Positions 2,930 through 57,170 of a stretch of 64,000 bases of DNA are shown piece after piece (the first letter of the stretch is position 1; every line of letters starts with the position of its first letter). Under the pieces are notes generated by a model. That model was not told where the DNA came from and ran no database searches. It worked only from the letters and a program-made list of their open reading frames with translations. The DNA comes from Segetibacter aerophilus (GTDB lineage Bacteria > Bacteroidota > Bacteroidia > Chitinophagales > Chitinophagaceae). Location: positions 744,001 to 808,000 of the forward strand of contig NZ_BJYT01000001.1 of NCBI RefSeq assembly GCF_007991655.1, in the 5' to 3' direction. Made by a program: the position numbers and the translations under genes.

Positions 2930-2949
2930 CATCGTTGTGTCACTCACTT
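2930..2949 (+). repeat. Dispersed intergenic repeat, copy 1
   Basis: Exact copy of the 20-bp core CATCGTTGTGTCACTCACTT, preceded by CAA and followed by a CTTGTA-like end. It lies between the GH92 and Ldh genes. An exact copy in the opposite orientation is at 4342-4361, so the two bracket the Ldh gene. The other good copies are at 9934-9953 and 57150-57169. Confidence 0.85.
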
Positions 2950-3070
2950 CTACTTGTAGAACCTTATTCTGCTGCAGTGACGAGAATAACTCAAGCTAAA
3001 AAAGGAGAAGTAAAGCAGCTTATACTTTCAATAAAATTTCGATAGTTTTTAAAAATTCCCGAAATATCTT

Positions 3071-4153
3071 ATGAGCCAAACATTTGACTACGAAAATTTA
3101 TTCGACTTCGTTCTGCATGTTTTTTTGCAAATGGGTTGCAGTGAAGAGCATGCACACCTGGCCACGGAGGTTTTATTATCGGCAGATTTGCGTGGCGTCG
3201 ATAGTCATGGAGTAGCTCGCTTAGGTGGATACATAAGGCTGTGGGAGGCAGGAAGAATAAATGCTACACCAACAATAAAAATAATCTATGAAACCCCCTC
3301 AACAGCAGTAGTTGACGGCGATGCAGGATTAGGATTAGTCGTAGCACCATTTGCAATGCAAGTCGCGATCGAAAAGGCGGAGAAAGCAGGAACGGGCTGG
3401 GTAAGCGTAAAAAACAGTAATCATTTTGGTATTGCAGGTTATCATGCAATGATGGCCCTTCCTCGGCAAATGATCGGGATGGCTATGACCAACGCAAGCG
3501 CCCTTGTTGCGCCAACTTTTTCTGTTGAAAGAATGCTTGGTACAAACCCGATTGCTGTCGCTATTCCCGCTAATAATGAACCCGCATTTGTCGCTGACTT
3601 TGCCACTACCACTGCATCAAATGGCAAGCTTGAGATTTTGCAGAGAAAGAACCAGGAAGCGCCGGAGGGTTGGGTGCAAGATGCGGAAGGTCATACAACT
3701 ACAGATGCTAATGCCTTAAAATCCGGCGGAGCAATGCTGCCGCTTGGTGGCGACCGCGAGCACGGAAGCCATAAAGGCTACGCCCTTGGAAGTATTGTAG
3801 ATATATTTTCTGCGGTTTTAAGCGGCGCCAGTTATGGTCCTTGGGCGCCCCCTTTTCCTGCATATGTACCCATGCCGGAGAATCTGCCCGGCGAGGGACT
3901 GGGACATTTTCTTGGCGCAATGCGGGTTGACGCATTTCGGCCGGCAGCAGATTTTACCGAAAACATGGATAACTGGATAAAAAGGTTTAAAGCTGCGAAA
4001 CCTGCAGCCGGGCAGGAAAGAGTTTTAATACCTGGAGATCCCGAACGCGAGATGGAAGCCATAAGAAGAAAAGAAGGGATACCGCTGTTTGAATCCGTCG
4101 TGTCTGACTTGAAAGGAGTGGGCGATAAGATGGGAGTATTATTCCGGGGCTAG
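3071..4153 (+). CDS. Ldh/MdhB-family NAD(P)-dependent 2-hydroxyacid dehydrogenase
   Basis: Member of the malate/L-lactate/ureidoglycolate dehydrogenase family (type-2, not related to the Rossmann LDH/MDH family), oxidising a 2-hydroxy acid with NAD(P)+. The 360-residue protein shows the family signatures LRGVDSHGVARL near residue 40, NSNHFGIAGYHAM near residue 117 (family active-site His region) and GSHKGYALGSIVDIFSAVLSG near residue 230. Length fits the family (330-360). No signal peptide, so cytosolic. The substrate cannot be assigned: malate, lactate, sulfolactate and ureidoglycolate enzymes share these motifs, and neighbours give no pathway. Two inverted copies of a dispersed repeat flank the gene. 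Confidence 0.9.
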   Translation: MSQTFDYENLFDFVLHVFLQMGCSEEHAHLATEVLLSADLRGVDSHGVARLGGYIRLWEAGRINATPTIKIIYETPSTAVVDGDAGLGLVVAPFAMQVAIEKAEKAGTGWVSVKNSNHFGIAGYHAMMALPRQMIGMAMTNASALVAPTFSVERMLGTNPIAVAIPANNEPAFVADFATTTASNGKLEILQRKNQEAPEGWVQDAEGHTTTDANALKSGGAMLPLGGDREHGSHKGYALGSIVDIFSAVLSGASYGPWAPPFPAYVPMPENLPGEGLGHFLGAMRVDAFRPAADFTENMDNWIKRFKAAKPAAGQERVLIPGDPEREMEAIRRKEGIPLFESVVSDLKGVGDKMGVLFRG

Positions 4154-4341
4154 TTTAAACAACAAGTGAGATAGCATTTTTAGAATGAATGTTTTGGATG
4201 CTAAAATGTTCAAAAGGATAAAAGCTATCAATTGAACGGTTTCTCCTAATCCTTTTTTTACCTTCATTGTCTTACCTTTGGCCAACTTTTTTTAGGTACT
4301 GATTCAACCTGTTTTTCGTGTTAATCATTGGCTTACAGTTG

Positions 4342-4361
4342 AAGTGAGTGACACAACGATG
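4342..4361 (-). repeat. Dispersed intergenic repeat, copy 2 (inverted)
   Basis: Exact reverse complement of the 20-bp core found at 2930-2949. It lies 189 bases after the Ldh stop and 55 bases before the next start codon. The spacing between copies 1 and 2 is about 1.4 kb and contains only the Ldh gene. Confidence 0.85.
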
Positions 4362-4415
4362 TTTAATAGAATTACGAATGTCAGGACAAAATAAAAACAC
4401 ATAATATCAACTAGA

Positions 4416-5672
4416 ATGGCAGATGTTTTTGCGAAGCTTGTAAAGGATGGAGGGCCGCTCGGCCAGCATATGGATAGGGCGCATGGCTACTTCGCCTTTC
4501 CTAAACTGGAAGGCGAACTTGGGCCAAGAATGACTTTTAGAGGAAAGGAAATGATTGTGTGGAGTTTGAATAATTATCTTGGTTTAGTCAATCATCCAGA
4601 GGTTAGAAGAGTAGATGCAGAGGCGGCCGCCATGTATGGAATGGGAAACCCCATGGGGGCAAGAATGATGAGTGGAAATACTGCGAAACACGACGAGTTG
4701 GAGAAAGTGATTAGTGCATTCGTAGGGCGGGAAGACACTATGCTTTTAAACTTCGGTTACCAGGGGATAATGAGCTGCATTGATGCACTTGTAAACCGCA
4801 GAGATGTGATTGTGTACGATGCCCAGGCACATGCTTGTATTGTTGACGGTGTGAGGTTACATGTAGGGCAGAGGTATGCGTTTAAACACAATGATATTGC
4901 TGATTGCGAAAAACAATTACAACGTGCAACAGAAGTTGCCAACAGAAACGGGGGAGGCATTTTACTGATCACTGAAGGTGTTTTCGGCATGGATGGCGAG
5001 CAGGGGAGATTGAAGGAAATCGTTGAACTGAAAAATAAATACGAGTTCAGGATATTGATTGATGATGCTCACGGTTTTGGATACATGGGCCCAAATGGTG
5101 CAGGTGCAGATTCCGCACAAGGCTGTACAGATGAAGTAGATTTATACTTTTCGACTTTTGTAAAAAGTATGGGTAGCATTGGTGCGTTTATCAGTGGACC
5201 TAAAGATGTGCTTAAGTATTTACGTTATAACACAAGAAGCCAGATTTTCGCTAAAAGTCTTCCGTTGCTAATTGTTGAAGGTATGCTTCACAGGATGGAG
5301 ATGGTGAAGACAATGCCGGAACTCCGTGAGAAGCTTTGGTATAATGTAGGCCGACTACAGGAAGGTTTAAAGGCAAGAGGTTTTGATATAGGAAACACTA
5401 ACTCGCCGGTTACTCCGATTTACATGAAAGGCGAACTGCCTGAAGCTACATCGATGGTGATGGACCTTCGCGAGAATTACCATATTTTCTGCTCGATTGT
5501 GGTGTACCCTGTTATTCCAAAAGGTGAAATTATCTACAGGATTATTCCTACGGCTGCCCATAGCGAGGAAGACATCGACCTTACTTTAAAAGCGTTTGAG
5601 GAAACGAAAAAGAAACTAGACTCGGGAGCTTATAAAGCAGAGAAAATTCCTGACATGGCTGAGGCGATTTAG
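4416..5672 (+). CDS. Alpha-oxoamine synthase family PLP enzyme (SPT/KBL/AONS-like)
   Basis: PLP-dependent acyl-CoA:amino-acid C-acyltransferase, the family of serine palmitoyltransferase, 2-amino-3-ketobutyrate CoA ligase and 8-amino-7-oxononanoate synthase. Of 418 residues, the visible active-site set is His139 in DAQAHACIVDG (stacks on PLP), Asp216 and His219 in LIDDAHGFG, and the Schiff-base lysine Lys250 in STFVKSMGSIGAF. Glycine-rich MGNPMGARMMSGN lies near residue 76. Bacteroidota make sphingolipids, and this could be the SPT, but the sequence differs clearly from the classic Bacteroides and Sphingobacterium SPTs I remember, which have GSGCAGSRFLNGT at the equivalent place. No threonine dehydrogenase or biotin gene adjoins it. 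Function beyond the family is therefore open. Confidence 0.88.
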   Translation: MADVFAKLVKDGGPLGQHMDRAHGYFAFPKLEGELGPRMTFRGKEMIVWSLNNYLGLVNHPEVRRVDAEAAAMYGMGNPMGARMMSGNTAKHDELEKVISAFVGREDTMLLNFGYQGIMSCIDALVNRRDVIVYDAQAHACIVDGVRLHVGQRYAFKHNDIADCEKQLQRATEVANRNGGGILLITEGVFGMDGEQGRLKEIVELKNKYEFRILIDDAHGFGYMGPNGAGADSAQGCTDEVDLYFSTFVKSMGSIGAFISGPKDVLKYLRYNTRSQIFAKSLPLLIVEGMLHRMEMVKTMPELREKLWYNVGRLQEGLKARGFDIGNTNSPVTPIYMKGELPEATSMVMDLRENYHIFCSIVVYPVIPKGEIIYRIIPTAAHSEEDIDLTLKAFEETKKKLDSGAYKAEKIPDMAEAI

Positions 5673-5772
5673 CCCGTAGTCGGATGAGGATAGTGCGATG
5701 GTTAAAGGATAAGATACTTTAAAACACAATTAATATTTCCCCGTAAAAAGCACCCGTTGGTCGGGGAATACA

Positions 5773-6036
5773 ATGATTAAAAAGTGGTTTACAAGAACGT
5801 CTCCTTTTGTAATACTATCTATCATAGCTGCTTTTTTATTTCTATACCAACTCATCTTTGAAAGAGGTGGACCCGATGAATGGAGAAATCCTTTATTACT
5901 CCGGCTATTACTTTTTGTTCTTTTGCTGGTTATACTTGACGTCGGTTTAAAGCACTTTATTCAAAAGAATTATTGGTTGTGGATGATCGAACTCTTCTTG
6001 TGCCTAGGTCTCTTTTACTATTGGATTGTTACTTGA
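5773..6036 (+). CDS. Small membrane protein, unknown
   Basis: 87 residues with about three hydrophobic segments (roughly 10-30, 42-60 and 66-85), separated by short charged loops such as ERGGPDEWRN. I do not recognise a family. The stop lies inside the 3' end of the convergent permease gene (33-base overlap). A 7-bp inverted repeat (5737-5743 with 5762-5768, TTCCCCG/CGGGGAA) ends four bases before the ATG and could influence initiation. It is preceded by the oxoamine synthase with a 100-base gap and may share its transcript. Confidence 0.6.
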   Translation: MIKKWFTRTSPFVILSIIAAFLFLYQLIFERGGPDEWRNPLLLRLLLFVLLLVILDVGLKHFIQKNYWLWMIELFLCLGLFYYWIVT

Positions 6037-7374
6037 AGTTTTTACAAACGGCCATTCCTTATTCACCTTTGCTTTTATAAAAAACACGATTATTCCCGCA
6101 GCAATTACGATTAATCCATACGACGCCATTTCTAATCCTGTTTTATACAAGATGAATAACCAGATAGCAATAGCAATATATACCGGTATCGGAAACAAGG
6201 GCATTTTATAAGGAAAGTCCGTCTTAACTCTTGCTTTCCTTAATAACAACAATCCTATTGCCTGTCCTATAAACTGAATTAAGATTCGCATTGCCAAAAT
6301 TGCACTAATCACTTCACTGAGCCTAAAGAGCAAGCTGAAAACAAATGCAATACTTCCCAGCACCAACAACGAGACATAAGGAAAGTGTTTGGTAGGATGT
6401 ACTCTTGCAAACACTTTAAAAAAAGCTCCGTCGGCCGCCGCGGCGTAAGGTATCCGGCTATAGCCAAGTGTAGCAGAAAAAACTGAAGCGAAGGCAACCC
6501 ACAAAATAAGGCAGGTGATAATTTTAGCTGCTGTGCTTCCTGCGAGTTCCTTCATAAAAAGACTTAGCACAAACTCGCTTCCTTTCGCTTGTTGCCAGGG
6601 TATTACACTTACTACACTTATATTCATCAATAGGTATAAAATGGCTATTCCGCCAATTGATAAAAACATACTTCTCGGAATATTTTTTGACGGGTCTTTA
6701 ATCTCTCCACCTAAATGACACACATTGTAATAACCCAAATAACTGTACACAGATTTAACGCTTGCAAAACCTATTGCTGATACGAAGGCATAGTTAATAG
6801 TTAGTCCATCGTTGATATGTCGGATAGGTGCAGTAAAGTTTCCGTAGGCAATGCCGGCACCAATAATCCAAAATAAAGTAACGATGACACCAGCCCAGAG
6901 AAAGATGCTTATTTTACCGATCGCATCTATTTTTCTATATAGCAAAAGCACGATTAAAATGACAACCGCACCACTTAACATTTTGCTTTCAATTGACGTT
7001 AACGGTACGAGGTAAGAAAAGTAAGAGGCAAATCCTATAGAAGCGGATGCAATAACAAGAGGTGCTTGTATCATGGTTTGCCACACAAATAAAAAGCTCA
7101 TCATTCTACCTACACCGTTAGTTCCGTATGCCTCTTTTAGAAAGTTATAACTGCCGCCCGCTTTTGGAAAGGCTGTGCCAAGTTCGCTCCAGATCATTGC
7201 ATCAATAAAAGATAAAATAGCTCCTGCTACCCAGGCATAAAGAAACCACGGTCCATTCATCATACCAATCACCATAGGCAGAGTGATGAAAGGACCAATG
7301 CCCACCATATCGATCATATTAATAGCTGTTGCTTGTACAAGCCCAAGCCGTCTTTCAAGTACTGGTGCCGCCAT
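6004..7374 (-). CDS. APC-superfamily amino acid permease
   Basis: Inner-membrane secondary transporter of amino acids or related compounds. The 456-residue protein has about 12 hydrophobic helices. The N-terminal stretch IDMVGIGPFITLPMVIG matches the unwound, substrate-binding TM1 of APC transporters (GIGIG-like), and the GGSYNFLKEAYG segment near residue 72 matches the TM2-TM3 signature (PxAGGxYxYl-type). The C-terminal tail is hydrophilic. The substrate cannot be told from sequence. The gene converges on and overlaps the small membrane gene at 5773-6036, and its start faces the divergent DUF92 gene with a 152-base gap. Confidence 0.9.
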   Translation of the reverse strand: MAAPVLERRLGLVQATAINMIDMVGIGPFITLPMVIGMMNGPWFLYAWVAGAILSFIDAMIWSELGTAFPKAGGSYNFLKEAYGTNGVGRMMSFLFVWQTMIQAPLVIASASIGFASYFSYLVPLTSIESKMLSGAVVILIVLLLYRKIDAIGKISIFLWAGVIVTLFWIIGAGIAYGNFTAPIRHINDGLTINYAFVSAIGFASVKSVYSYLGYYNVCHLGGEIKDPSKNIPRSMFLSIGGIAILYLLMNISVVSVIPWQQAKGSEFVLSLFMKELAGSTAAKIITCLILWVAFASVFSATLGYSRIPYAAAADGAFFKVFARVHPTKHFPYVSLLVLGSIAFVFSLLFRLSEVISAILAMRILIQFIGQAIGLLLLRKARVKTDFPYKMPLFPIPVYIAIAIWLFILYKTGLEMASYGLIVIAAGIIVFFIKAKVNKEWPFVKTSSNNPIVKET

Positions 7375-7526
7375 TGGTTATATTTGTTTTTCCAATTTTT
7401 GTGCTGCAAAGGTGCAAAGAAGAATTGACGAATTTGGTAAATAAGTATTGCAATAGAAACAACTTTGACCGTCTATAAAAAGAGGATCTGCAACTACGAT
7501 AACTATAAAACATTTTATCTAAGAAT

Positions 7527-8249
7527 ATGCTTTCTAGCTATTTTATCATTGTAACTATTCTTGCTGTCATCGCTGTAGCAAGTGTACTGGTGAAGAAGTT
7601 GACGATGCCTGCAGGAATAACAGGGTTTATTGTAGGGCTATTAATATTTGCTGGCGCAGGATATACAGGAGTAATAATGCTAGCGGTATTCTTTCTATTG
7701 GGAACATCTGCAACCTCATGGGGGATGCGACAAAAGCAACGCATGGGATTAGCTGAAAGTGACAAAGGCCAACGTACGGCAGGACAGGTAATAGCAAACG
7801 GAGGCGTTGCGGCTCTCCTAGGCTTATTATCGTTTGCACTTCCTGCACTTTCATCTTTATTTACACTTATGATCGCTGCAAGCTTAGCTTCGGCAACAGC
7901 GGATACGTTGTCCTCTGAGCTTGGAAATTTGTACGGAAAGAAATTTTATAACGTCATCACTCTACAAAAAGATCGGAGAGGGTTAGATGGAGTAATCAGT
8001 TTTGAAGGCACTATACTTGGTGTACTTGGAGCGCTCTGCATCGCTCTTGTTTTCTCTGTAGGCTTTGGCTTTAGCATTAATTTCTTACTTATCATTATCG
8101 CAGGTACGACTGGCAACTTGTTCGACTCTGTGTTAGGCGCAACGCTTGAAAGAAGACATACGTTAAATAACAACGCAGTTAACTTTTTGAATACCGCCAT
8201 AGCTGCAATAGCAATCTATATTTTATACTTTTTAACGAACATTAGTTAG
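7527..8249 (+). CDS. DUF92 (TMEM19-like) membrane protein
   Basis: 240-residue integral membrane protein with about six hydrophobic helices. The central segment SLASATADTLSSELGNLYG followed by a D-G-V-I-S-x-E-G-T-x-x-G run is the hallmark of DUF92/TMEM19. The family includes plant VTE6, a phytyl-phosphate kinase, and resembles CTP-dependent lipid kinases, so an isoprenoid- or lipid-phosphate kinase role is possible, but that is inference. The start at 7527 gives a hydrophobic first helix without extra sequence. It is divergent from the permease and stands alone. Confidence 0.85.
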   Translation: MLSSYFIIVTILAVIAVASVLVKKLTMPAGITGFIVGLLIFAGAGYTGVIMLAVFFLLGTSATSWGMRQKQRMGLAESDKGQRTAGQVIANGGVAALLGLLSFALPALSSLFTLMIAASLASATADTLSSELGNLYGKKFYNVITLQKDRRGLDGVISFEGTILGVLGALCIALVFSVGFGFSINFLLIIIAGTTGNLFDSVLGATLERRHTLNNNAVNFLNTAIAAIAIYILYFLTNIS

Positions 8250-8451
8250 CCTTTTTTAATACTGCTCTTTATAATTTTATTTAGGTAGAAAAGGACTTTT
8301 TAGTGAAGTATATTCTGCTTGAAATGTGGCTTGGAGATAATCAAATTAAAACTTTGAAAGGCAGTTGTATAAAGGTTTGTAGCTTTTCAATGCACTTATT
8401 GCGATACCTATATTCGGCGTAAGATGTTGTGCTTTACTAGCTTGCTGTCTT

Positions 8452-8459
8452 TACATTTG
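8452..8459 (+). promoter_or_regulatory. Candidate Bacteroidota promoter (-7 box)
   Basis: TACATTTG matches the Bacteroidota -7 consensus TAnnTTTG. A TTG at 8427-8429 lies 22 bases upstream, in the range seen for the -33 element. It would give a leader of roughly 130 nt before the small secreted protein at 8595. The rest of the 345-base gap 8250-8594 shows no gene; it holds a short repeated phrase ATTGCTACC at about 8540-8565. Confidence 0.5.
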
Positions 8460-8594
8460 CTTCAGATTATTTCTGATAAAGTGCTGGTCTTTATCCTAAC
8501 TACCCTCTGACACTTCTTCTGACATTGCCTGCGGAAACATTGCTACCACCATGATTGCTACCGTTAAATTTTTTTTTAACCAAAATTGAAAAAC

Positions 8595-9014
8595 ATGAAA
8601 AAGCAAATGACAAGCAGTGTGATCAAATCAATCTTCACAACTGCAATTCTAGTATCGGTGTTATTTTTAAATTCTGCCAATGCAGCAGAAGACAAGTCAG
8701 CAAAAGCAACTAGTACTACTTACGAACTTAAGTATGTTGGCCAACTTAAGGAGCAGCCAATATTTCAACTAAACATTGAAAATTCTTTGAAAGAAGAAGT
8801 TTATCTAAGACTTGAGGACGAGGTTGGAAATGTTCTTTACAACAGCAAATTCAATGACAAAAACTTCTCTAAAAACTTTCAGTTCGATGTTAGTGGAAAC
8901 AGTACAACAATTAAAATGGTACTATTTTCTAAGACATCAAAACACACGCAAGTTTTCAAAATTGAAAATGTCAGACAACTGGTCGAGAACGTAGTTGTAA
9001 CCAAAGTAGATTAA
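8595..9014 (+). CDS. Small secreted protein, unknown
   Basis: 139 residues when started at the ATG at 8595; an in-frame TTG three codons upstream is less likely. Signal peptide with a hydrophobic core ILVSVLFLNS and a probable cleavage after SANA (about residue 31). The mature part is a single small beta-rich domain with ELKYVGQLKEQPIFQLNIEN, followed by YLRLEDEVGNVLYNSKF. Similar small exported proteins are familiar to me from Chitinophagaceae, but no function is known. It is a monocistronic unit: candidate promoter at 8452 and strong terminator at 9071. Confidence 0.75.
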   Translation: MKKQMTSSVIKSIFTTAILVSVLFLNSANAAEDKSAKATSTTYELKYVGQLKEQPIFQLNIENSLKEEVYLRLEDEVGNVLYNSKFNDKNFSKNFQFDVSGNSTTIKMVLFSKTSKHTQVFKIENVRQLVENVVVTKVD

Positions 9015-9070
9015 GTCAAAAACGGAAAATGGTTGAGAAATTATATCAACCTCCCACCACTTTTGGAATA

Positions 9071-9104
9071 AAAAATAAGCCTCGCGATTGCGAGGCTTAT
9101 TTTT
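9071..9104. terminator. Strong bidirectional-type terminator
   Basis: A perfect 15-bp stem (9071-9085 with 9090-9104, GC core GCCTCGC/GCGAGGC, A-run on one side and T-run on the other) with a 4-base loop GATT. It ends the small secreted gene on the plus strand, and its symmetry would also serve the minus strand. The remaining 9105-9415 is AT-rich with no gene that I can support. Confidence 0.92.
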
Positions 9105-9415
9105 TATTCAACAAAAATATAATTATCGTTTCTGTTGATTGTTTTCTACCGGAACGGGTATCAATTCGGGCTGTTTTAAGCCAAATAAAATTGATAGAAC
9201 ATCTTTCACACTCATATAATTCGTTTAAAGGTTGACAATCTAATCTTTATTACCCCTACTTCATCAAGAGTGCGTGTAAATTAGTGAGAAATACCGGACA
9301 AAACTGTTAAAAAAGAAATTAGAGTTTAATATTTAGTTTTTATTCTAATAACTAGTATTGTCTTTAAATTATTGTGTTGTATAGGCATTTCTGTGCACTT
9401 TTTAAACGACTCTTA

Positions 9416-9802
9416 TTAGGTAGCCTGCGTATCTTCTGACGCCACTTCTTTCAATAACCGATCGTTTATAACCTGCTTAAAAGCATTCTTTGGTAGCGCA
9501 CCACGTTGTATCATCGGCGCTCCCTCAACTGGTATAAAAAGAAACGTAGGAATACTTTGAATACCAAACAATTCAGAAAGTTCAGGTTCTTTGTCTGTGT
9601 CTATTTTATAAATTTCTACCTTGTTATCATATTCGTCAGAAAGCTGCTCGAGCGTTGGCGCAACTGATTTACAAGGGCCACACCATTCAGCGTAAAAATC
9701 TATGACAGCAGGCAACTTACCTTTATATTTCCACTCTTCGCTATTCTGGTAGTCAAAAATTTCATCAATAAATTCTTGCTTGTTTAAATGTTTTGTAGGC
9801 AT
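9416..9802 (-). CDS. trxA: Thioredoxin
   Basis: Cytosolic thiol-disulfide reductant. The 128-residue protein has the thioredoxin fold with the redox motif WCGPC (Cys41 and Cys44) in DFYAEWCGPCKSVAPTLEQ and the cis-proline loop IQSIPTFLF. It is about 20 residues longer than E. coli TrxA, mainly through an N-terminal extension (about residues 1-25) and a short acidic C-terminal tail. No signal peptide. The MsrA gene 2.2 kb away would be a natural client, since MsrA is recycled by thioredoxin, but the two are not in one operon. Confidence 0.9.
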   Translation of the reverse strand: MPTKHLNKQEFIDEIFDYQNSEEWKYKGKLPAVIDFYAEWCGPCKSVAPTLEQLSDEYDNKVEIYKIDTDKEPELSELFGIQSIPTFLFIPVEGAPMIQRGALPKNAFKQVINDRLLKEVASEDTQAT

Positions 9803-9889
9803 TTATTTGTTTTAAGAAAGTAAAAAATTAAAACAGGATATCTCACTAAAAAGTGGGCAAACACAGTGCCATTTATCGATCGTATATTA

Positions 9890-10015
9890 GTCAGAAATTC
9901 AATGTAGGGACAAGCATTGTCACTTCGTTGTAGCATCGTTGTGTCACTCACTTGTACGTTTTCAAGAATTGAGCTTTTTTAGAGTGAACATTACGTCCCT
10001 ACACTTCCATCTGAC
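9890..10015. repeat. 126-bp element with inverted ends containing repeat copy 3
   Basis: Imperfect inverted ends at 9890-9911 and 9995-10015 share GTCAGA at the outer edge and TGTAGGGAC at the inner edge, with 6-7 unlike bases between. Inside, at 9934-9953, is an exact copy of the dispersed core CATCGTTGTGTCACTCACTT followed by GTAC. It lies between trxA and the SDR gene, both on the minus strand. It carries no reading frame of note and resembles a small non-autonomous mobile element or a folded RNA unit. Confidence 0.6.
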
Positions 10016-10037
10016 TTAATCAAGACAATAACAATAA

Positions 10038-11060: not shown

Positions 11061-11160
11061 AGTTGTAGAATTAAGAATATTCGCGTAAATAAGTGTGCCA
11101 GTAGTACCGTCTCTAATCGGTGGTTCTGTTTTGGTAGCTAGTTTTAGCCTCGACAGCAAC

Positions 11161-12012: not shown

Positions 12013-12029
12013 TTTGAATTGTCGAAGTA

Positions 12030-12686: not shown

Positions 12687-12738
12687 AGTAATGGCTTTAG
12701 TTATCATCTACCAATTGTTATCTTTTTTGACGATGCTG

Positions 12739-12984: not shown

Positions 12985-13028
12985 CACGTTCAAAATAAAG
13001 TAAGTGCCTTATTGGGCAGAGGTTTTCT

Positions 13029-18301: not shown

Positions 18302-18342
18302 AATGCCGGTATCAGGAATGAACTTTTTTTGATACCGGCGTT
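18302..18342 (+). terminator. Terminator after the two-component operon
   Basis: Stem of 10 perfect bp (18305-18314 with 18330-18339, GCCGGTATCA/TGATACCGGC), extended by three weaker pairs, 15-base loop, followed by TTTGTATTTTT. It is 13 bases after the receiver stop. Confidence 0.8.
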
Positions 18343-18533
18343 TGTATTTTTGGGCGTCATCGTTGCGACGCTCCGTTAATCGTTAGCGCTGGTTTGTACC
18401 TTTTTAGCACGATTTTCTTTTACTGCTTAAACTTGTAGTAATTTTTGTACAACAAGTTTTGAGCATTCACTTCCCCCAATTAATGCTGGCAAAATATTTA
18501 CTATTTATAGAATATCTACAAAATGTCTGAAGA

Positions 18534-21546: not shown

Positions 21547-21675
21547 GTTCTATTTTTCGTAAAAGTAGTATTCGTCTTTGTGACAAACTTTTTAAAACTA
21601 ATAGAGTTAGACTAACCTTCGGTTAGAAGACTTGTGAAAATCTCCCGGTACCAGTTGAGACAGATTTTACCGTAC

Positions 21676-21695
21676 AAGAGTGCGACGCAAGAATG
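21676..21695 (-). repeat. Decayed copy of the dispersed repeat
   Basis: Reverse strand reads CATTCTTGCGTCGCACTCTT, which is the repeat core with six mismatches but with the flanking CAA and GTAC also kept. It lies between the Gre-like gene and pta. Weaker candidates, matching mainly the left half, are at 18359-18378 and 25322-25341. Confidence 0.45.
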
Positions 21696-21816
21696 TTGAG
21701 AACAGGTATGGTGGTGGCCCCAAAAAGAAAATGCTATTCAAAAAGTTTTTGATGATGATTAGCACCTGTAATAACGATTCATTTTCTGACCTTCGCCAGC
21801 AAGCAAATACCTGGAT

Positions 21817-25283: not shown

Positions 25284-25381
25284 TTTTTGTTTTTGGTACC
25301 AGCATTTGGAGGACTATTCTGCATTGTTGCGTCGCAATCCGTTCATCTTTCGTGCTACTATTGATCTCCTCAAAGTCGATC

Positions 25382-47351: not shown

Positions 47352-47472
47352 GGAAGCTTTGAATACTTTAAAAGTCTGATTTTAAATCGGTAGTATTCAA
47401 CAACTTCGTGTTTTTTGCTTTGCCTTAACAAGCAACAATCAACTGCATTGATAGGATGTTGCAGTACGATTT

Positions 47473-49293: not shown

Positions 49294-49452
49294 TCGATAT
49301 TTTATTCTTGCTCATTAATTTCTAGTCTTTTGTCCGTGGATGCCTTGTTGCATGTATAACATGATTAAGACTAAGAACAAAAAAAGCACGAAAAATGATT
49401 TTTGTAAAATTTGTTGCAATAGCTGTACCGCCAGTTATTTTATTGGCAAGAA

Positions 49453-51489
49453 TCAATAACTCAATCCTTCATTGTATTTAAACAAGCTGTAACCAGGTGC
49501 TTCTAAATTTCCCGGTACATCTTCTTTCTGATTTTTAACCGCCTCTTCTGTTCGGGGAGTAGTAAAAGGCATTTTGCCTGAGGGTTTAAACTTACCTGTA
49601 AGTATATCTAAAAGAGCATCCCTCGAAGTTCCGAATGTAGCAATCACGCCCTTGATGTTTGCCTTGTTTCCATCATTATAAATCTCATTGATGACCCATG
49701 GGTTTGTATAATTGATGGCTAGTACCGTTGGCTTTTTCTCAGTCAACTTATTAACGTAGCTGACATCTACATTGTTTCTCGACAGGGAGAGGTAAAGAGG
49801 AGAGCCGTCGGACTCAAACAACGATTTCGCTCCCGGCGTGATCCACAATACAACCAGGTCTGCTTCCTCAGGTGTACTTACAAATTCAACATTGTGGTTA
49901 TTGTTTTTTGCAGCGTAAACGTTGTGCGGATTTGCACTTCCTCTCTTGGGAAAGTAGGTCTCGAAATACACTTTTGTTTTCGCTTTAAGCGGAAGAGTTT
50001 TTGATTCATTCCGCAATAGAACAATTGATTTCCGTAGCGCAACGTTTGCCCTCTCCTGGAACTTTGCATTGCCAGCAATTTTTTCAGCAGCCTCTGCATC
50101 AACATAGGCATTTTCGAAAAGGCCAAGTTCAAATTTTTCTAACAGCAATCTTCGTACAGACTCGTCAACCAATTTCGTATCAACCATACCACTCTTTACT
50201 GTTTCCAAAAGCTTCGCAGGATCAGCTGTACCAGAGTAAAGATTTACACCTGCTTCTAATGTTCTTTTATATCGCTCTATAACAGATAAGTTTTCGGCGC
50301 CCCACGGCATCATTTCGATGGGACCGGTATCGGAATTAATAACGCCTTTAAAACCAAGTTTACCCCTTAGTAAATCCTGCAATATTCTCTTGTTGTATGC
50401 ATAAGCGATCTTCTCATACTCGAGATCTTTAGGTATAGAATAATAGGGCATGATGGATGAAGTGCCGGCTTTGATAGCAGCTCTAAACGGAATTAAATTG
50501 TTTTCGAACATCTTGCCCGGAAAAGTTTCATACTTACCCCAGTCAAAATGGGGATCTTGCCCGCCTTCTCCCGCGCCACCGCCGGGGAAGTGTTTAGTCG
50601 TAAGAGCCACTGAAGAAGCATTTAATTTCGGGCCTTGAAAACCTAGTACTACCTCGGTCATCATCTGAGCTACCCATTCTGCGTTTTCTCCAAAAGTTCC
50701 TTCAATACGTTGCCACCGTGGTTCGGTTGAAAGGTCTGCCATATACATGTAGCCTTTCCTTAATCCAACAGCTTTCCATTCTTGCCGCGCTATGTCGGCA
50801 AACTCTCTTACAAGTTTTAAATCACGCATAGCTGAAAGGCCCAGTTCACCCGGCCAGGTCGAAAAGGTGGTTGCCCCTACACTTAAGCCTATAGAAGCGT
50901 CTTGTGTTATATGGTTACGAGGATTAGAGGCGACAATAGCTGGAATTCCCAGGCCGTCACTTTCGCAAAGTGCTTGTAATTTATTTGCCCATTCTGCAGT
51001 TATTCTTGCACTAACATTTGCCCTGAAAATAAAATGACGGAGATGAAATTGTGTGACACCTTTTGTAGTACCGGCAACATTCATAATGGGCACGGGGAGC
51101 GGCTTGCGGGTAAATATATTATTCGTAGCAACAACGTCCTCTTCATTAAAATCACTTGTTACCTGTAGCTTGTTTTCTGATGCTTGTTGTCCACCTTCAT
51201 TCTTCAAACGTGTTGTACTAATCAGCATGAAACCGACCTTCTCTTCTAATGACATTTTAGAAAGCAAGTCGGTCGCTCTCTCTTCATTTGAAAGCCTCCA
51301 ATCTTCATACTTATCCAGCTTACCATTTTTATTCAGGTCTTTAAACTGAAGGGCACCAACGGTAAGAACTTTGGCGGATCTATATCCGAGTACCGGCTGT
51401 TTCATCATTACCCCTGCTTTCGGTTGGGCGATAGCAGCACTGGTTATAAATAAAGCAATTACAAGAAACTGAGGCGAAGCAATACTCAT
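49453..51489 (-). CDS. GH3 beta-glucosidase-like enzyme
   Basis: 678-residue exported GH3 enzyme (signal peptide to about residue 22). After it comes DLNKNGKLDKYEDW (about residues 52-65), an EF-hand-like calcium loop seen in one GH3 branch. The (beta/alpha)8 domain carries TTKHFPGGGAGEGGQDPH (substrate-binding KHF) and the nucleophile Asp in GVINSDTGPIEM. The second alpha/beta domain carries KSIVLLRNESKTLPL. Compared with 750-residue BglX-type enzymes it lacks the C-terminal fibronectin-III-like domain. With the GH144 gene nearby it could release glucose from sophoro-oligosaccharides (inference). Confidence 0.93.
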   Translation of the reverse strand: MSIASPQFLVIALFITSAAIAQPKAGVMMKQPVLGYRSAKVLTVGALQFKDLNKNGKLDKYEDWRLSNEERATDLLSKMSLEEKVGFMLISTTRLKNEGGQQASENKLQVTSDFNEEDVVATNNIFTRKPLPVPIMNVAGTTKGVTQFHLRHFIFRANVSARITAEWANKLQALCESDGLGIPAIVASNPRNHITQDASIGLSVGATTFSTWPGELGLSAMRDLKLVREFADIARQEWKAVGLRKGYMYMADLSTEPRWQRIEGTFGENAEWVAQMMTEVVLGFQGPKLNASSVALTTKHFPGGGAGEGGQDPHFDWGKYETFPGKMFENNLIPFRAAIKAGTSSIMPYYSIPKDLEYEKIAYAYNKRILQDLLRGKLGFKGVINSDTGPIEMMPWGAENLSVIERYKRTLEAGVNLYSGTADPAKLLETVKSGMVDTKLVDESVRRLLLEKFELGLFENAYVDAEAAEKIAGNAKFQERANVALRKSIVLLRNESKTLPLKAKTKVYFETYFPKRGSANPHNVYAAKNNNHNVEFVSTPEEADLVVLWITPGAKSLFESDGSPLYLSLSRNNVDVSYVNKLTEKKPTVLAINYTNPWVINEIYNDGNKANIKGVIATFGTSRDALLDILTGKFKPSGKMPFTTPRTEEAVKNQKEDVPGNLEAPGYSLFKYNEGLSY

Positions 51490-51716
51490 AGCAATTAGAT
51501 TTATGGCAACCGTAGTATTTATAATAATTAAGAGAATACCTGTTAGATAAGAAGCTTGACGAGCTAAGATAGTAATACGAAAGCAAACAGAAACAAGCCG
51601 TGCTGCTTAAAAGAATTCCAAATGCAGACCCTTAAATTGTTACTTCCGTAGTGCCCCAGCAAGGAAATTATAGGGAGGTAGGAGGGAAATTAATTTTAAA
51701 AATAAAAGCCTATTAA

Positions 51717-51749
51717 TTTGGTAGACTATTAATTCTCCCTTTATATTTG
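51717..51749 (+). promoter_or_regulatory. Candidate promoter of the susC-susD operon
   Basis: TTTG (51717-51720), 21-base spacer, TATATTTG (51742-51749): a full match to the Bacteroidota promoter pattern. CTATTAATT occurs twice (51710-51718 and 51726-51734), flanking the -33 element, as a possible regulator site. The start would leave a leader of about 420 nt before susC. An AT palindrome AATATTTATTAAATATT follows at 51767-51783. Confidence 0.6.
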
Positions 51750-51952
51750 TGCATCAATATTTATTAAATATTGGTTTTTGGCATCGAAATCATTTAAACC
51801 TGATAATTGAAATTTTGAAAATTCTACCTTTTTCAAATTCTGCCGATACTACAAGACTAGCAGCAAAATCTGGTTGTTGCTGTTGTATGTGCTGTTGATT
51901 CCACACGACCTTGCCTGTACTTAATTTCTATTTTTAAATCATCATAACATAA

Positions 51953-52033
51953 ATGTATTCACCAACAACAATGGCGAAAACACAAAGCATTTTTACAGCT
52001 TTGAACAAGCGGATTAGAGGTTTATTGTGTTGA
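51953..52033 (+). CDS. Possible 26-codon leader ORF ahead of susC
   Basis: ATG at 51953 reads 26 codons ending TGA at 52033: the encoded peptide contains MAKTQSIFTALNKRIRGLLC from an internal ATG at 51971. It lies in the long susC leader and stops 27 bases before a strong hairpin at 52061. Its basic character and a loose likeness to the start of SusC (MQKNLLTSLSKAIL) are notable. It could be a regulatory leader peptide, a remnant, or chance. Confidence 0.35.
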   Translation: MYSPTTMAKTQSIFTALNKRIRGLLC

Positions 52034-52060
52034 GCTAATAAGAAAAAAGAGTTGAAAAAA

Positions 52061-52086
52061 ACCGGAACCACTGCAATGGTTCCGGT
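52061..52086 (+). promoter_or_regulatory. GC-rich hairpin in the susC leader
   Basis: Perfect 10-bp stem ACCGGAACCA (52061-52070) with TGGTTCCGGT (52077-52086), 6-base loop CTGCAA, 90 bases upstream of the susC ATG. It is not followed by a T-run, so it is not a plain terminator. An RNA-stability, attenuation or protein-binding element is possible. Confidence 0.65.
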
Positions 52087-52175
52087 GGAAATAACACAAG
52101 CCGGAGTTTGACATTACAGAAAGTGTAAAACCTTCTGCCGGGCATTGTATTGTCTAAAAAAACCAAAATAAAAGT

Positions 52176-55100
52176 ATGCAAAAGAATTTACTTACTTCAT
52201 TAAGTAAAGCCATTTTAACCTTTGAACAACGGGGCCAATCTATTTTAAAAATAGCTATAGTAACGGTCTTTTTTGTTAGTAGCAATCAATCGTTTGCACA
52301 GGACAATAAGAGCAAAACAGGTGACAACAATATTCTGCTTTTTGGAAAAGTTGTTGAAGAAAAGTCGAAAGCTCCGCTTGAAGGCGCTTCAGTTCATTTA
52401 AAAGGAACAACGCATGAAGTAATCACCGATAACCAGGGTGGATTTAAGTTTGTAACCGGGCAGAAACTGCCTGTAACCTTTATCGTTAGTTATATAGGAT
52501 ACCAGACAAACGAGATTACTTTCAAGGAAAACAACAACATTTTTATAGAATTAAAAGATGGTACAAATGCACTGAACGAAGTAGTTGTGGTTGGTTACGG
52601 AACCCAACGAAAAAGTGATGTAACAGGATCTGTTGCCACGGTATCTAAGAACTTATTAAGTCAGCCTGCAGCTTCCTTTGATAATCTTTTACAAGGATCA
52701 GTTCCGGGTGTGGCTGTTACACAGAGTTCAGCGCAACCTGGTAGTACCGCAACGATAAGGGTACGAGGCGGCAACTCTATCAGCTTTGGTAATGATCCAT
52801 TGTATGTAATTGATGGCTTTATAGTTTACAACAACAACACCTATGCAAATACTGGTGCATCTAATGGTGTTGGTGTAAATGCATTGTCTACAATTAACCC
52901 AAGTGATATTGAATCCATTGAAGTATTGAAGGATGCCTCAGCCACTGCCATCTACGGTTCAAGAGGTGCAAATGGGGTTGTACTAATCACTACAAGAAGA
53001 GGAAAGAAGAGTGGGAGTGAAGTAAATTATAGTACATATATAGGCGTACAAAAAGTCAGGAAAAGACTTGAACTGTTAAATGCGTCTCAGTGGGCATCTT
53101 TAATAAACGATGTGAATTTTAGCGACGGTAAACCTAAAACATTTTCCGACTCTGCAATTGCAGCTTTAGGTGTTGGTTCAGATTGGCAGGATGCAGCTAT
53201 AAAAAACGCCACCATTCAAAACCATGAGTTATCATTTTCAGGTGGCGACGATAAGTCCAGGTTTTTAGTTTCGGGTAACTATTATAACCAAGGCGGAACA
53301 GTAGTCAATACCGGCTTTAAAAGATACTCGGCCCGGATTAACTACGAGAGAAACATAAGCGATAAACTGAAGCTGGCGACAAATGTTTTTGGCAGTCAAT
53401 CTGTAGAAGACAAACTTTTTGGAAACGCTTACAACAGCTCTAATTTTCAAAGCACTGCCTTCGCTAATCTGTTACTTCTTTCCCCTGTGGCTAAAATTTA
53501 TAATGCCGATGGAAGTTATAATACAGCAAGCCCTTATTCTTCTACACCAACAAATCTTTTACAGGATATTGCAAAAACAACCAATAAAAGTTACCTCAAT
53601 AGAATTCTTGGAAACCTTTCATTGGAGTATAAACTCATAAAAGAGCTAACCTTAAAAGTTACGGCGGGAGCAGACTTATTTAATGCAAGACAAAACTATT
53701 ATTCTCCTTCCTTCGCCGGTTCCCCAGCAGGTAATTCAACCGGGTTTTCTACACAGGGATATGCTGCCATCGGCTCTGCAAATGCTACTACCTGGATCAA
53801 TGAAAACCTGCTCACTTATGATCATTCCTTCAATAAAAAGCATTTCTTAAATATTCTTGGTGGTTATACTATTCAGCACCAGAAAGATAATGTCGCAGTA
53901 GCCGCTGCACAGAAGTTTCCGAACGATCAGACAAAATTCAACAACTTAAACTTTGCTTCGACACCAGTGCTTTCTACCTCAGATGCACATGAATCTGCAA
54001 TCAATTCTTATCTCGCAAGAGTTAATTATTCTTTGCTCCATAAGTACAACCTGTCCCTATCTGCACGTGCTGATGGCTCCTCTAAACTCGGTGCAAATAA
54101 CCGCTGGGGATTTTTTCCTTCCATTGGTTTTAGTTGGAACGTAGCAGAAGAGAATTTTTTGGAGAAATATTCAAAAACAATCAGCAACTTAAAACTAAGA
54201 TTATCAGCAGGCAGAACCGGAAACTCTGAAGTGCCGCCTTATAGCTCACTTGCTGCACTTACACCCACCAACTATTATTTTTCAAGCACCCTGGTTACCG
54301 GAATCTCTCCAACTCAAATTGCCAATCCAGACTTGAAGTGGGAGACCACAACACAATACAATGCTGGAGTTGATGTGGGTTTGATTAGAAACCGGATCAA
54401 TGTATCATTTGATGTGTATTTAAAGAGAACAACTGATCTTTTGCTGAATGTCCCTTTCCCTTTATATACCGGCTATGCAAGTTCCCTACAAAACGTCGGC
54501 AGCGTTGAGAATAAAGGTGTAGAGTTAAGCATTACTTCTGACAACCTGAAAGCTCGTAACCTCAATTGGAAATCAACTTTTGTAGTGGCCGCAAACAGGA
54601 ATAAAATATTAAGTCTTGGTAACGGAACTGATTATTATTTCCCGCTTGCGCCCACAGGTTTTGTATCGCCTGTTATCGTTAAAGTAGGTTTGCCCGTTGG
54701 TACTTTCTGGGGCTACAACACCGCAGGATTATTAACTGCTAATGATCTCTCAAAAGGTACTCCTGTTTTAAACGGCGTCTCACAACAGGAAGGAGATCGC
54801 AGGTATGTGGACTACAATGGCGACGGTATTGTTAATTCAAATGATAAGCATAGTCTTGGTACGGCCCAGCCCAAGTTTACTTTTGGTTTCAACAATTCAG
54901 TTACAATCAAAAACTTCGATCTTTCTGTTTTCTTCCAGGGTTCTTATGGCAACAAGGTTTTCAACTTTTTGCAACAGAAATTAGAAATACCTACATTATC
55001 TCTCAATGCAAGTTCAACGCTGCTTGACCGCTGGACTCCACAAAATCCTACAGGAAAAATTCCAAGGGCAACCAACGCACCGGTATCACAAGTGGCTGAT

Positions 55101-55361
55101 GTATATGTAGAAGATGCTTCTTATCTCAAACTAAAGAATCTGTCTGTAGGATATAGTTTTTCAAAAGGTCTGATTTCAAAAGTGGGAGTGAAGCAACTGC
55201 GCTTGTATGCAACTGCACAAAACCTGCTTACGCTTACTAAATACACAGGTTATGATCCTGAAGTAAACTTCTTTGATGGTGATAATACAAAACAGGGAAT
55301 TGACTATGGGGCGTATCCAAGTACCAAAGCTTTTCTTGCCGGAGTAAACATCACCTTTTAG
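52176..55361 (+). CDS. SusC-type TonB-dependent outer-membrane transporter
   Basis: 1061 residues. An extended N-terminus with a signal helix (about 24-42, ending SNQSFAQ), a CarboxypepD_reg-like domain (about 58-135: LFGKVVEEKSKAPLEGASVH), the TonB box/plug start EVVVVGYGTQRKSDVTGSV, plug motifs PGSTATIRVRGGNSI and GNDPLYVIDG, DIESIEVLKDASATAIYGS with RGANGVV, and a 22-strand barrel ending AFLAGVNITF. Imports oligosaccharide with the SusD lid encoded 52 bases downstream. The substrate is not readable from sequence. Confidence 0.96.
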   Translation: MQKNLLTSLSKAILTFEQRGQSILKIAIVTVFFVSSNQSFAQDNKSKTGDNNILLFGKVVEEKSKAPLEGASVHLKGTTHEVITDNQGGFKFVTGQKLPVTFIVSYIGYQTNEITFKENNNIFIELKDGTNALNEVVVVGYGTQRKSDVTGSVATVSKNLLSQPAASFDNLLQGSVPGVAVTQSSAQPGSTATIRVRGGNSISFGNDPLYVIDGFIVYNNNTYANTGASNGVGVNALSTINPSDIESIEVLKDASATAIYGSRGANGVVLITTRRGKKSGSEVNYSTYIGVQKVRKRLELLNASQWASLINDVNFSDGKPKTFSDSAIAALGVGSDWQDAAIKNATIQNHELSFSGGDDKSRFLVSGNYYNQGGTVVNTGFKRYSARINYERNISDKLKLATNVFGSQSVEDKLFGNAYNSSNFQSTAFANLLLLSPVAKIYNADGSYNTASPYSSTPTNLLQDIAKTTNKSYLNRILGNLSLEYKLIKELTLKVTAGADLFNARQNYYSPSFAGSPAGNSTGFSTQGYAAIGSANATTWINENLLTYDHSFNKKHFLNILGGYTIQHQKDNVAVAAAQKFPNDQTKFNNLNFASTPVLSTSDAHESAINSYLARVNYSLLHKYNLSLSARADGSSKLGANNRWGFFPSIGFSWNVAEENFLEKYSKTISNLKLRLSAGRTGNSEVPPYSSLAALTPTNYYFSSTLVTGISPTQIANPDLKWETTTQYNAGVDVGLIRNRINVSFDVYLKRTTDLLLNVPFPLYTGYASSLQNVGSVENKGVELSITSDNLKARNLNWKSTFVVAANRNKILSLGNGTDYYFPLAPTGFVSPVIVKVGLPVGTFWGYNTAGLLTANDLSKGTPVLNGVSQQEGDRRYVDYNGDGIVNSNDKHSLGTAQPKFTFGFNNSVTIKNFDLSVFFQGSYGNKVFNFLQQKLEIPTLSLNASSTLLDRWTPQNPTGKIPRATNAPVSQVADVYVEDASYLKLKNLSVGYSFSKGLISKVGVKQLRLYATAQNLLTLTKYTGYDPEVNFFDGDNTKQGIDYGAYPSTKAFLAGVNITF

Positions 55362-55413
55362 TCAGTTAATAGTCTAATTCTCCCCAACCTTTTTTGCATA
55401 AAATTTTAAGACA

Positions 55414-56871
55414 ATGAAAAAAACATTCATTTTTCTTGCTTCGGCACTCCTTTCACTGTCGTGCAACAAGCTTGTTGAAAGTCCTGAAGCAATTATTACA
55501 AATGCTCAATTTTATAAAACCCAATCTGATGCTGTTGCAGCGGTTGCTGCTGTATATAGCTCACTCAACACAGATGCTGCAGGTGATTTTATAATCTACG
55601 GCCGAAACCTTAACCTGCTAACATCAAATGGCGCTGACGACCAGACTTTTAGCCCTTCCAATACCAACCCTGATGTAATTGCTTTGGGAACTGCTACCTA
55701 TGTTGCAGCAAATGACAGGGTTAAAAAAGTATGGCAGCAACATTACTTCGGTATCAGCAGGGCAAATGTTGCAATTGACAATATTCCTGCTATTTCGTTC
55801 GATACAACTTTGCGCTCCAGACTTTTAAGAGAGGCTAAGTTTATAAGAGCGCTTCTATACTTTAATGTCGTTCGTTTTTGGGGCGATGCTCCGCTCATTC
55901 TTCATGATCCCGCAAGTATTAAGGTGGATGAATTGAAAGTGGCAAGGGCTCCAAAAGAAAAAGTATATGAGCAAATTATTGCTGACTTAACGGATGCAAC
56001 CAACCTGCCTGCTACTTATGGTATCGCAGATAAGGGCAGGGCTACCAGTGGAGCGGCTCATGCGTTGCTGGCTAAAGTATATGTAACAAGACGTGATTGG
56101 CAAAATGCTTTAAAGGAAATTAATGCAGTAACTAACGGCGGTTACGGTTACGATCTTTATCCAAACTATATTGATGCTTTTCAAAAGGCAACTAAAAATG
56201 GGATAGAGCATATTTTTTCTGTTCAGTTCGAGACAAACCTGGGTGCAAAAAACAGCCAGCAATTTCTTAGTAACAACAGTTTTTCTTCGTTCAATGCAAC
56301 TGTCAACCCCGGTGACAGACCGATCGACAGCACGCTTTACAATCTATTTTCTGCTGAAGACACCCGCCGTGATGTTACCTTTTATACCCGCCTTTTCAAC
56401 GCCGCAACCGGTCAGTATGTAAACTTTCCTTTTGCACGTTTTGCCAAATTCATCGACTTTTCTTTGAATCCTTTAACCAACCAGGCACAAAGCGGAATTA
56501 ATTATCCCGTCATTCGTTTTGCCGACATTCTATTACTAAAAGCTGAGGTGTTGAATGAACTAAATAATGGCCCTACAACTGAGGCGTATGCGGCAATCAA
56601 TAGAGTTCGAAACAGGGCTAAAATTGGTAACCTGGTTTTAGGTCTGGGTCAAAGTGAATTCAGGGAAGCTGTTTTCCTGGAGCGTCGCAAAGAGTTTGTG
56701 CAGGAAGGCCAGCGGTGGTTTGACCTTTCTAGAAGAGGCGGAACTTATTTATATGATGCATTGAAAAAGTACCCCGCTAAAATAGGAGCTGCTGTGAAAG
56801 ACACGCTTTATCCTATACCTCAGTCTGAGATCGAAATCAATCCTTTGCTTACTCAAAATGCTGGCTGGTAA
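55414..56871 (+). CDS. SusD/RagB family surface glycan-binding lipoprotein
   Basis: 485 residues. Lipobox LSLSC, then the SusD fold with TPR-like helices: SRLLREAKFIRALLYFNVVRFWGD is the signature helix, with LLAKVYVTRRDWQNALKEI and the C-terminal FREAVFLERRKEFVQEGQRWFDL and LYPIPQSEIEINPLLTQNAGW. It caps the SusC channel at 52176 and is co-transcribed with it. A 341-base repeat-bearing gap follows before the two small membrane genes. Confidence 0.95.
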   Translation: MKKTFIFLASALLSLSCNKLVESPEAIITNAQFYKTQSDAVAAVAAVYSSLNTDAAGDFIIYGRNLNLLTSNGADDQTFSPSNTNPDVIALGTATYVAANDRVKKVWQQHYFGISRANVAIDNIPAISFDTTLRSRLLREAKFIRALLYFNVVRFWGDAPLILHDPASIKVDELKVARAPKEKVYEQIIADLTDATNLPATYGIADKGRATSGAAHALLAKVYVTRRDWQNALKEINAVTNGGYGYDLYPNYIDAFQKATKNGIEHIFSVQFETNLGAKNSQQFLSNNSFSSFNATVNPGDRPIDSTLYNLFSAEDTRRDVTFYTRLFNAATGQYVNFPFARFAKFIDFSLNPLTNQAQSGINYPVIRFADILLLKAEVLNELNNGPTTEAYAAINRVRNRAKIGNLVLGLGQSEFREAVFLERRKEFVQEGQRWFDLSRRGGTYLYDALKKYPAKIGAAVKDTLYPIPQSEIEINPLLTQNAGW

Positions 56872-56910
56872 AAGGGGATTTTTTTTGAGCCCAACAATAT
56901 TATTTCAATG

Positions 56911-57170
56911 AAACATCGTTGCGTCGCACACTTGTACTGCACCGTCATCGCGAGAAGGAATAAACTGACCCATTGCTTATGCGAGAGAAGCTACAGCATA
57001 TGAACCGTCGTCATTGCGAGGAGGAACGACTAAGCAATCTGCTCTACAAATTGGAGCACATGAAACATGAGAAATCAGATTGCTTCGTTCCTCGCAATGA
57101 CGGGGAATTGTATAAGATGTTTCAAATGTTGAGCGACGAGAAACTGTACAAGTGACTGACACAACGATGT
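56911..57170. repeat. Nested inverted-repeat element
   Basis: Outer arms: diverged copy of the dispersed core at 56914-56933 (three mismatches) with following GTAC, and an inverted good copy at 57150-57169 (one mismatch) with preceding GTAC. Inner arms: 57009-57041, beginning CGTCATTGCGAGGAGGAACG, and its partner 57076-57102, separated by a 34-base loop; the left arm has six extra bases. A decayed third copy of the inner motif starts at 56943. The element lies between susD and the small membrane genes. The inner motif resembles palindromic CGTCATTGCGAG repeats that I recall from many bacterial genomes. Confidence 0.75.

Follow-up and report, generated by a model that had tools for sequence, protein, structure and literature searches.

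A REP-like extragenic element of about 76 bp near gene ends in Chitinophagaceae chromosomes and on phage contigs

Introduction

Does a short sequence that recurs between the genes of a bacterium represent leftover selfish DNA, or is it a site that the cell uses? This question is raised by a 64,000-nucleotide stretch of the Segetibacter aerophilus genome (contig NZ_BJYT01000001.1, positions 744,001 to 808,000; hereafter the window), in which a preliminary description made from the sequence alone had noticed a dispersed 20-bp intergenic repeat and had proposed that it is a repetitive extragenic palindromic (REP)-like element, the end of a small mobile element, or a binding site. REP-like families are often regarded as decaying selfish DNA. 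The element described here retains its core at given gene boundaries even though the rest of the gap is scrambled; its core forms are coupled and swap in place, it varies block by block, and it is found between phage structural genes. The question of whether extragenic repeats are functional thus becomes testable, and the element provides a family-specific sequence marker. Our preferred reading, held tentatively and at somewhat less than an even chance, is that this REP-like unit of about 76 bp, which lacks a hairpin, is bound by a protein and acts at gene ends.

The repeat is the core of a longer and sharply bounded unit

All five copies reported for the 20-mer were recovered in the window at up to 3 mismatches, three of them exact (2930, 4342, and 9934), one with a single mismatch (57150), and one with three (56914). 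The view that such recurrence is not due to chance held: 0.01 matches are expected, and none of 100 dinucleotide shuffles of the window reached five. In the whole genome (G000; 5.89 Mb), the same threshold gives 320 places, 160 on each strand, against none for the reversed 20-mer pattern used as a control. In a 400-kb sample (C1:1-400k), 39 places against 3 control matches were found at up to 5 mismatches and 169 against 161 at up to 7; the excess is gone at 7 mismatches, and the family is therefore sharply set apart from the background.

The copies lie between genes, as first noticed. All eight window copies are outside open reading frames (ORFs) of at least 100 amino acids. In genome samples, where genes were called by a custom script using ORFs and codon usage, the centers of 1/51 elements (G000 sample) and 1/118 elements (sample of the relative G001) fall in called genes, at coding fractions of about 87% and 80%, respectively. 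Element density in G001 is biased upward because several of its contigs were chosen for earlier-listed repeat matches. Two of 37 places with up to 4 mismatches in the 400-kb sample are in called genes, namely 84190 and 172848, the latter at the gene's last bases. Two look-alikes, 84190 (inside a gene) and 58588 (a hairpin), were left out of the consensus below and kept in the mismatch series and gene-overlap counts of this sample.

The repeat is real, but its reported length of 20 bp is too short. A consensus of 35 copies reveals a directional unit of about 76 bp, extending from about −33 to +42/+43 relative to the core start, in which a T-run, CC-GC, CTT, and TTCAA precede the core CATCGTTGTGTCACTCACTT, which is followed by GTAC, a T-rich stretch, and TATTCAGC. 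The GTAC seen after good copies is thus part of the consensus, and the strict core occupies 20 to 24 bp. Among 87 copies from G001, information reaches background by about −33 and drops from 0.49 at +42 to 0.00 at +43; a profile of pairs chosen by similarity gives the same edges but is not independent, since the pairs were picked over those columns. In three other genera (G013, G033, and G016), the layout is the same by eye and the variable blocks have other letters. Weight matrices for the whole unit, trained on copies of the two main core types (see below), clearly recovered two of the decayed copies previously listed, at 21676 and 18358; a third, at 25322, was recovered only weakly.

In all five genomes examined, flanks of copies within a genome were more similar than column-shuffled controls, which suggested copying of whole units. 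We dropped this explanation because left and right flanks hardly covary. The correlation between their similarities is 0.08 in G000, 0.00 in G013, −0.26 in G016, −0.05 in G005, 0.07 in G001 (38/1,000 permutations as high), and 0.33 in G033 (10 copies; 35/1,000 permutations as high), and left and right blocks are little or no more alike within one element than between elements. An excess without left-right correlation indicates linked variants inside one flank, and nearly uncorrelated flanks are expected of separately constrained blocks, not of recently copied units. No near-identical copies were present among those sampled (best flank identities, 0.63 in G000, 0.79 in G001, 0.81 in G013, and 0.79 in G016).

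Neither strand yielded a shared RNA structure over 169 copies (alifold); weak local stems appeared in 15 copies from G013 only, and fold z-scores of 100 copies averaged −0.21/−0.38. Six window copies showed no unusual folding as single-stranded DNA (z, −1.3 to +1.2), and the 64-kb window has 0 Rfam matches at the gathering score. Strong hairpins occur near 4/22 and 9/68 elements whose upstream gene points at the T-run, near 1/27 and 3/42 of the remaining elements, and in 15/400 random windows. Their distance from the element varies, and they are probably ordinary terminators.

Core positions covary and core forms substitute in place

The core occurs mainly as type I (GTGTCAC) or type II (GCGTCGC). 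In 133/134 Segetibacter copies, positions 8 and 12 carry either T-A or C-G, and position 14 is coupled to them. When positions 8 to 14 were switched off in the matrix, 196 elements were found (107 type I, 68 type II, and 21 other), of which 194 are complementary at 8 and 12; 19 of the 21 other cores, GCNACGC forms among them, keep the pair. Exceptions exist elsewhere, for example, 3 among the first 100 of 143 places in G013, which make up the core list for that genome. The combination T8-G12 is nearly absent, which argues against an RNA stem and for a symmetric reading of double-stranded DNA, or for homogenization. In the gap between ldh and an aminotransferase gene, G009 has a type I core and G005 a type II core within clearly related flanks, indicating that the forms substitute for one another in place.

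Elements avoid divergent gaps and persist at orthologous sites

Divergent gaps hold 19 of 154 elements, compared with 44.3 expected from the placeable length (P = 1.7 × 10−6). Elements in 81 codirectional gaps sit, on average, at a relative position of 0.40 from the stop codon (P = 0.001; P = 0.08 for G000 alone and P = 0.009 for G001 alone). Both biases fit either avoidance of promoters or a pull toward 3′ ends. Codirectional gaps show no strand preference (16 same and 15 opposite in G000; 29 and 22 in G001).

For 23 orthologous pairs from seven gap groups, each pair having recognized copies in the two genomes compared, identity is 0.90 in the 20-bp core, 0.58 and 0.46 in the flanks, and 0.28 to 0.39 in the DNA beyond the unit. 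The corresponding values for nonorthologous copies are 0.88, 0.43 and 0.30, and 0.26 to 0.30. In gaps with conserved neighboring genes, taken without selection, comparison of G000, G006, and G009 found a copy in both genomes 7 times, in one 0 times, and in neither 20 times; over all genome pairs, the counts are 11, 16, and 33, from few loci that are not independent. One G000 gap scored as copy free has a decayed copy, and G006 and G009 share a copy at a place where G000 lacks the neighboring gene, a case missed by this test. Many of the copies are therefore long established at their sites, even though some have been lost or gained, and those that persist retain the core. Empty sites were compared in four gaps, where the intergenic DNA is too diverged for placing the ends of the element.

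Close pairs mostly face inward

Neighboring elements less than 700 bp apart are inward facing in 28/32 cases, with 3 outward and 1 tandem, whereas those at least 5 kb apart (n = 123) comprise 22 inward, 40 outward, and 61 tandem pairs. A separate scan without G013 found 21/25 close pairs to be inward. Unlike core types are combined in 18/21 inward pairs, compared with 54/105 neighbors at 2 kb or more (Fisher's P = 0.004), and the inward pair in the window (56914/57150) also has arms of unlike type. Center distances of inward pairs below 700 bp are not constant, ranging from 61 to 679 bp, and the arms are no more alike outside the core than random copies (0.36 versus 0.41 in 11 pairs from G001; 0.42 versus 0.39 in the single G000 pair). 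Three wider pairs enclose genes for Ldh, an Era-like GTPase, and a LipA-like protein, the last two named by eye from their translations, and no transposase. Adjacent copies tend to alternate in orientation over longer distances as well, tandem arrangements accounting for 7/41 neighbors at 700 to 2,000 bp, 23/69 at 2 to 5 kb, and 61/123 beyond 5 kb.

Phage contigs carry the element

An exact scan of IMG/VR returned 28 stretches on 23 contigs; 26 of the 28 stretches also match the matrix, with 36 distinct elements. Neighboring genes were examined on three contigs, where 7/8 proteins have a PHROG match; they include terminase large subunit, tape measure, head decoration, tail, baseplate hub, and replication proteins. 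Of the elements in 23 assignable codirectional gaps, 14 run antiparallel and 9 parallel, and the right block contains the upstream gene's stop codon in 10 of the 14 antiparallel ones. In the phages L243 (8350-8683) and L249 (1684-2019), the element and the gene after it (about 87%) are common to both, and the preceding genes are unrelated; with sharing on one side only, the element marks a mosaic junction. Eight related viral loci without the element have 40 to 63% protein identity and are too distant for defining its boundaries. At L253 (11046) and L267 (2956), elements seem to lie well inside called phage genes, unlike in the hosts.

The element is restricted to one family and does not track RAYT genes

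The degenerate core is present in 31/60 genomes of Chitinophagaceae, including that of S. aerophilus, and in 0/39 genomes of other families in the order (99 genomes searched). In a sample of the phylum, 4/247 genomes match, all of them among the 8 Chitinophagaceae, compared with 0/239 outside this family. The 20-mer with up to 3 mismatches has 1 or 2 matches in 4/23 genomes of other families; the reversed control has 1 match in 3/59. We take these matches as chance, the degenerate core being absent there.

One relative of the same genus, G008, has only 2 degenerate-core matches, compared with 42 to 932 in eight others, and a gene lost in G008 could be a candidate partner of the element. Density along the single-contig chromosome of G013 looks uneven: its 143 places begin at 239 kb of contig 1, and 30 of the first 100 are within 2.0 to 2.5 Mb. 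GC skew in this genome (20 samples) is too noisy for placing the origin or terminus.

The preliminary description had also suggested looking for a REP-associated tyrosine transposase (RAYT) or IS200-like transposase, and the link failed. S. aerophilus has three PF01797 matches, one of which is RAYT-like; a decayed element lies about 400 bp from it. With this protein as the query, homologs were found in 60/99 genomes (E ≤ 1 × 10−10), and their occurrence does not track element number. No RAYT-like gene was found in G003, G009 (an assembly that is 88% complete), G033, G034, or G059, which have 228, 509, 149, 210, and 48 element places, respectively. Among 30 fetched RAYT loci, the strict core occurs in 1 and matrix matches occur in 2, at distances of about 400 bp and 1 kb from the RAYT gene. 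We therefore rejected such a transposase as a necessary partner.

Interpretation

How might these properties be explained together? In the reading that we favor, a putative DNA-binding protein, probably a homodimer, would read the core dyad 7-GY-NNC-RC-13 and make secondary contacts with the T-run and the TATTCAGC-like blocks. The binding site proposed at the outset fits the symmetric covariation of the core and its conservation at orthologous sites. The element may then act as orientation-independent punctuation near gene 3′ ends, singly or as an inward pair, serving as a transcription roadblock, an insulator, or a nucleoid anchor; purifying selection would hold the core in place. Some phages carry the same element. 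A broader version, which we consider rather unlikely, would make it a class of gene-end punctuation common to Chitinophagaceae chromosomes and phages. Such a class would have separately varying blocks, a predicted dimeric protein, and the interchangeable cores TGTGTCACT, TGCGTCGCA, and GCNACGC, would occur alone or in inward-facing pairs, whose arms in Segetibacter are usually unlike, and would end or insulate transcription in either direction.

Several observations weigh against a protein-bound gene-end element. No binding protein was identified, and copy number within Segetibacter ranges about 466-fold, from 2 (G008) to 932 (G001), which is odd for an important site. A tolerant dimeric site should yield more asymmetric cores than are seen, so that two old lineages or homogenization could also account for the linked positions. 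All eight close pairs in G013 combine type II with type II (3/8 differ at position 16), in a genome that is mostly type II, and the rule of unlike pairs is therefore shown for Segetibacter only. Of 78 host stop codons that face the right edge, only 3 abut or overlap the element, and 8/36 distinct elements on viral contigs are centered in a called gene. Close relatives also differ in their copies: of the three at the locus L044, G009 lacks one and another was not detected in G006, differences that were seen by eye and missed by the test of unselected gaps.

The element could alternatively be selfish and REP-like, relic or active, and copied by a transposase acting in trans; the core would then be what this enzyme recognizes, and the host would need no function for it. 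We regard this as unlikely but as the main rival: motif edges are sharp, copy numbers differ greatly, close pairs favor one orientation as do CGTC REPs (PMC3733652), and flanks are more similar than shuffled controls. Given how little left and right flanks covary, this last point is not evidence for whole-unit descent, and the core is conserved at orthologous sites amid scrambled neighboring DNA; the lack of RAYT association and of near-identical pairs among sampled copies also speaks against this reading. If inward pairs were instead whole miniature inverted-repeat transposable elements (MITEs) and single copies their remnants, the geometry of close pairs would follow. This is very unlikely, because pairs have no fixed length, their arms are no more alike than random copies, the genes in the three wider pairs are not transposases, and no bracketed transposase was seen in the loci examined. 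The same variable spacing, arms no more alike than random copies, and weakly covarying flanks leave the proposed end of a small mobile element without support.

Action in RNA, as a factor-dependent terminator or a stabilizer of mRNA 3′ ends, would account for the bias toward gene 3′ ends, the avoidance of divergent gaps, and the overlap with stop codons on phage contigs, and inward pairs could form long hairpins. We think it improbable: codirectional host gaps show no strand preference, the copies share no fold and the window no Rfam match, and T8-G12, which RNA would tolerate as a wobble, is almost absent. Still less probable is a DNA-uptake signal, comparable to uptake signal sequences (USS) or DNA uptake sequences (DUS), kept by biased uptake. 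Hundreds of copies in both orientations, a strict core with T-rich flanks, alternative core forms, and separately varying blocks would suit such a signal, which is difficult to reconcile with the missing excess of weak matches, the near absence of copies from genes, and the presence on phage contigs.

Comparison with known systems

REPs are defined as extragenic, palindromic, and able to form a stem-loop, short (14 to 40 nucleotides in Escherichia coli), sharing a consensus, and transcribed (PMC12306157). The element is extragenic and has a common consensus in its 320 places, but it forms no stem-loop, and its core of 20 to 24 bp sits in a much longer unit. As described in PMC3733652, head-to-head dimers predominate among CGTC REPs, tail-to-tail dimers are rare, and head-to-tail dimers are negligible; heterodimers are preferred in most families, and mismatched arms have been suggested to escape hairpin-cleaving enzymes, an argument that could, by analogy, apply to the unlike pairs here. 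REPs and bacterial interspersed mosaic elements (BIMEs) thus resemble the element in extragenic location, hundreds of copies, occurrence as singles and dimers in one orientation with head-to-tail pairs negligible, and, for Segetibacter but not for G013, preference for heterodimers (PMC3733652). We chose the "head" end of the element, so that inward equals head-to-head by analogy only. The element differs from REPs and BIMEs in length, in lacking their 8- to 9-bp stem-loop and GTAG/CGTC end tag (PMC3733652), in core conservation at orthologous sites, and in its presence on phage contigs. Its edges are the T-run and TATTCAGC, neither of which is such a tag; the CGTC of type II is internal and is absent from type I. 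The initial label of REP-like fits its organization, given its extragenic location, its hundreds of copies, and the dominance of one orientation among pairs, and we say that the element works like a REP without classing it as one.

The TnpA-REP (RAYT) subclass 2.6, with "atypical" structures, likewise has a Bacteroidetes host and flanking sequences with copies elsewhere in the genome (PMC6006769); unlike in that subclass, the element does not flank the RAYT-like genes found here, which do not follow its distribution. Stoperators of cluster A mycobacteriophages are repeated protein-binding sites across phage genomes, and their block of elongation is the kind of action proposed for the element (PMC9283540); they belong to a phage repressor, whereas the element is abundant in host chromosomes. 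A search of titles and abstract openings in the open-access literature, including 12-base core strings, returned no description of the element.

Uptake signal sequences occur in many copies with a strict core and variants between lineages. Those of the Pasteurellaceae (PMC1626085) share these features with the element, which in contrast is rarely in genes, has no continuum of near matches, and is also on phage contigs.

Copies in the window

The eight copies of the element in the window, named by the start of the 20-mer, are listed in Table 1.

Table 1 Copies of the element in the 64-kb window, with scores from the whole-unit matrix
Feature	Coordinates	Strand	20-mer	Score
Element copy, type I core	2897..2973	+	2930-2949	59.3
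Element copy, type I core	4318..4394	-	4342-4361	57.6
Element copy, type I core	9901..9977	+	9934-9953	41.3
Decayed copy, type III-like core GTTGCGACGCTC	18325..18401	+		22.9
Diverged copy, type II core	21652..21728	-		40.2
Strongly decayed copy, type II-like core, weak	25289..25365	+		-0.6 (best control, -12.1)
Left arm of inward pair, type II core	56881..56957	+	56914	59.0
Right arm of same inward pair, type I-like core	57126..57202	-	57150	43.2

The 2930 copy lies in the GH92-ldh gap and has orthologous copies in G006 and G009 and a type II counterpart in G005; this gap in G004 has no recognizable copy. The 4342 copy is orthologous to copies in G006, G009, and Segetibacter koreensis DSM 18137, again with type II in G005, and no copy was found at the corresponding site of G004. 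An orthologous copy of 9934 is present in G009. By eye, the 9934 copy is enclosed by a 9-bp inverted repeat, TGTAGGGAC/GTCCCTACA (9890-9997).

Nested between the arms of the 56914/57150 pair is an inverted pair of a second repeat (57010-57105), starting with CGTCATTGCGAGG, which by eye resembles published CGTC-tagged REPs. CGTC-like strings occur within 150 bp of 3/51 elements in the G000 sample and 1/118 in G001. A hairpin at 58588-58634, in a convergent gap, has long, near-perfect arms (ATCGTTGTATTAA...TTAATACAACGAT) and resembles the core start; it is probably an ordinary bidirectional terminator.

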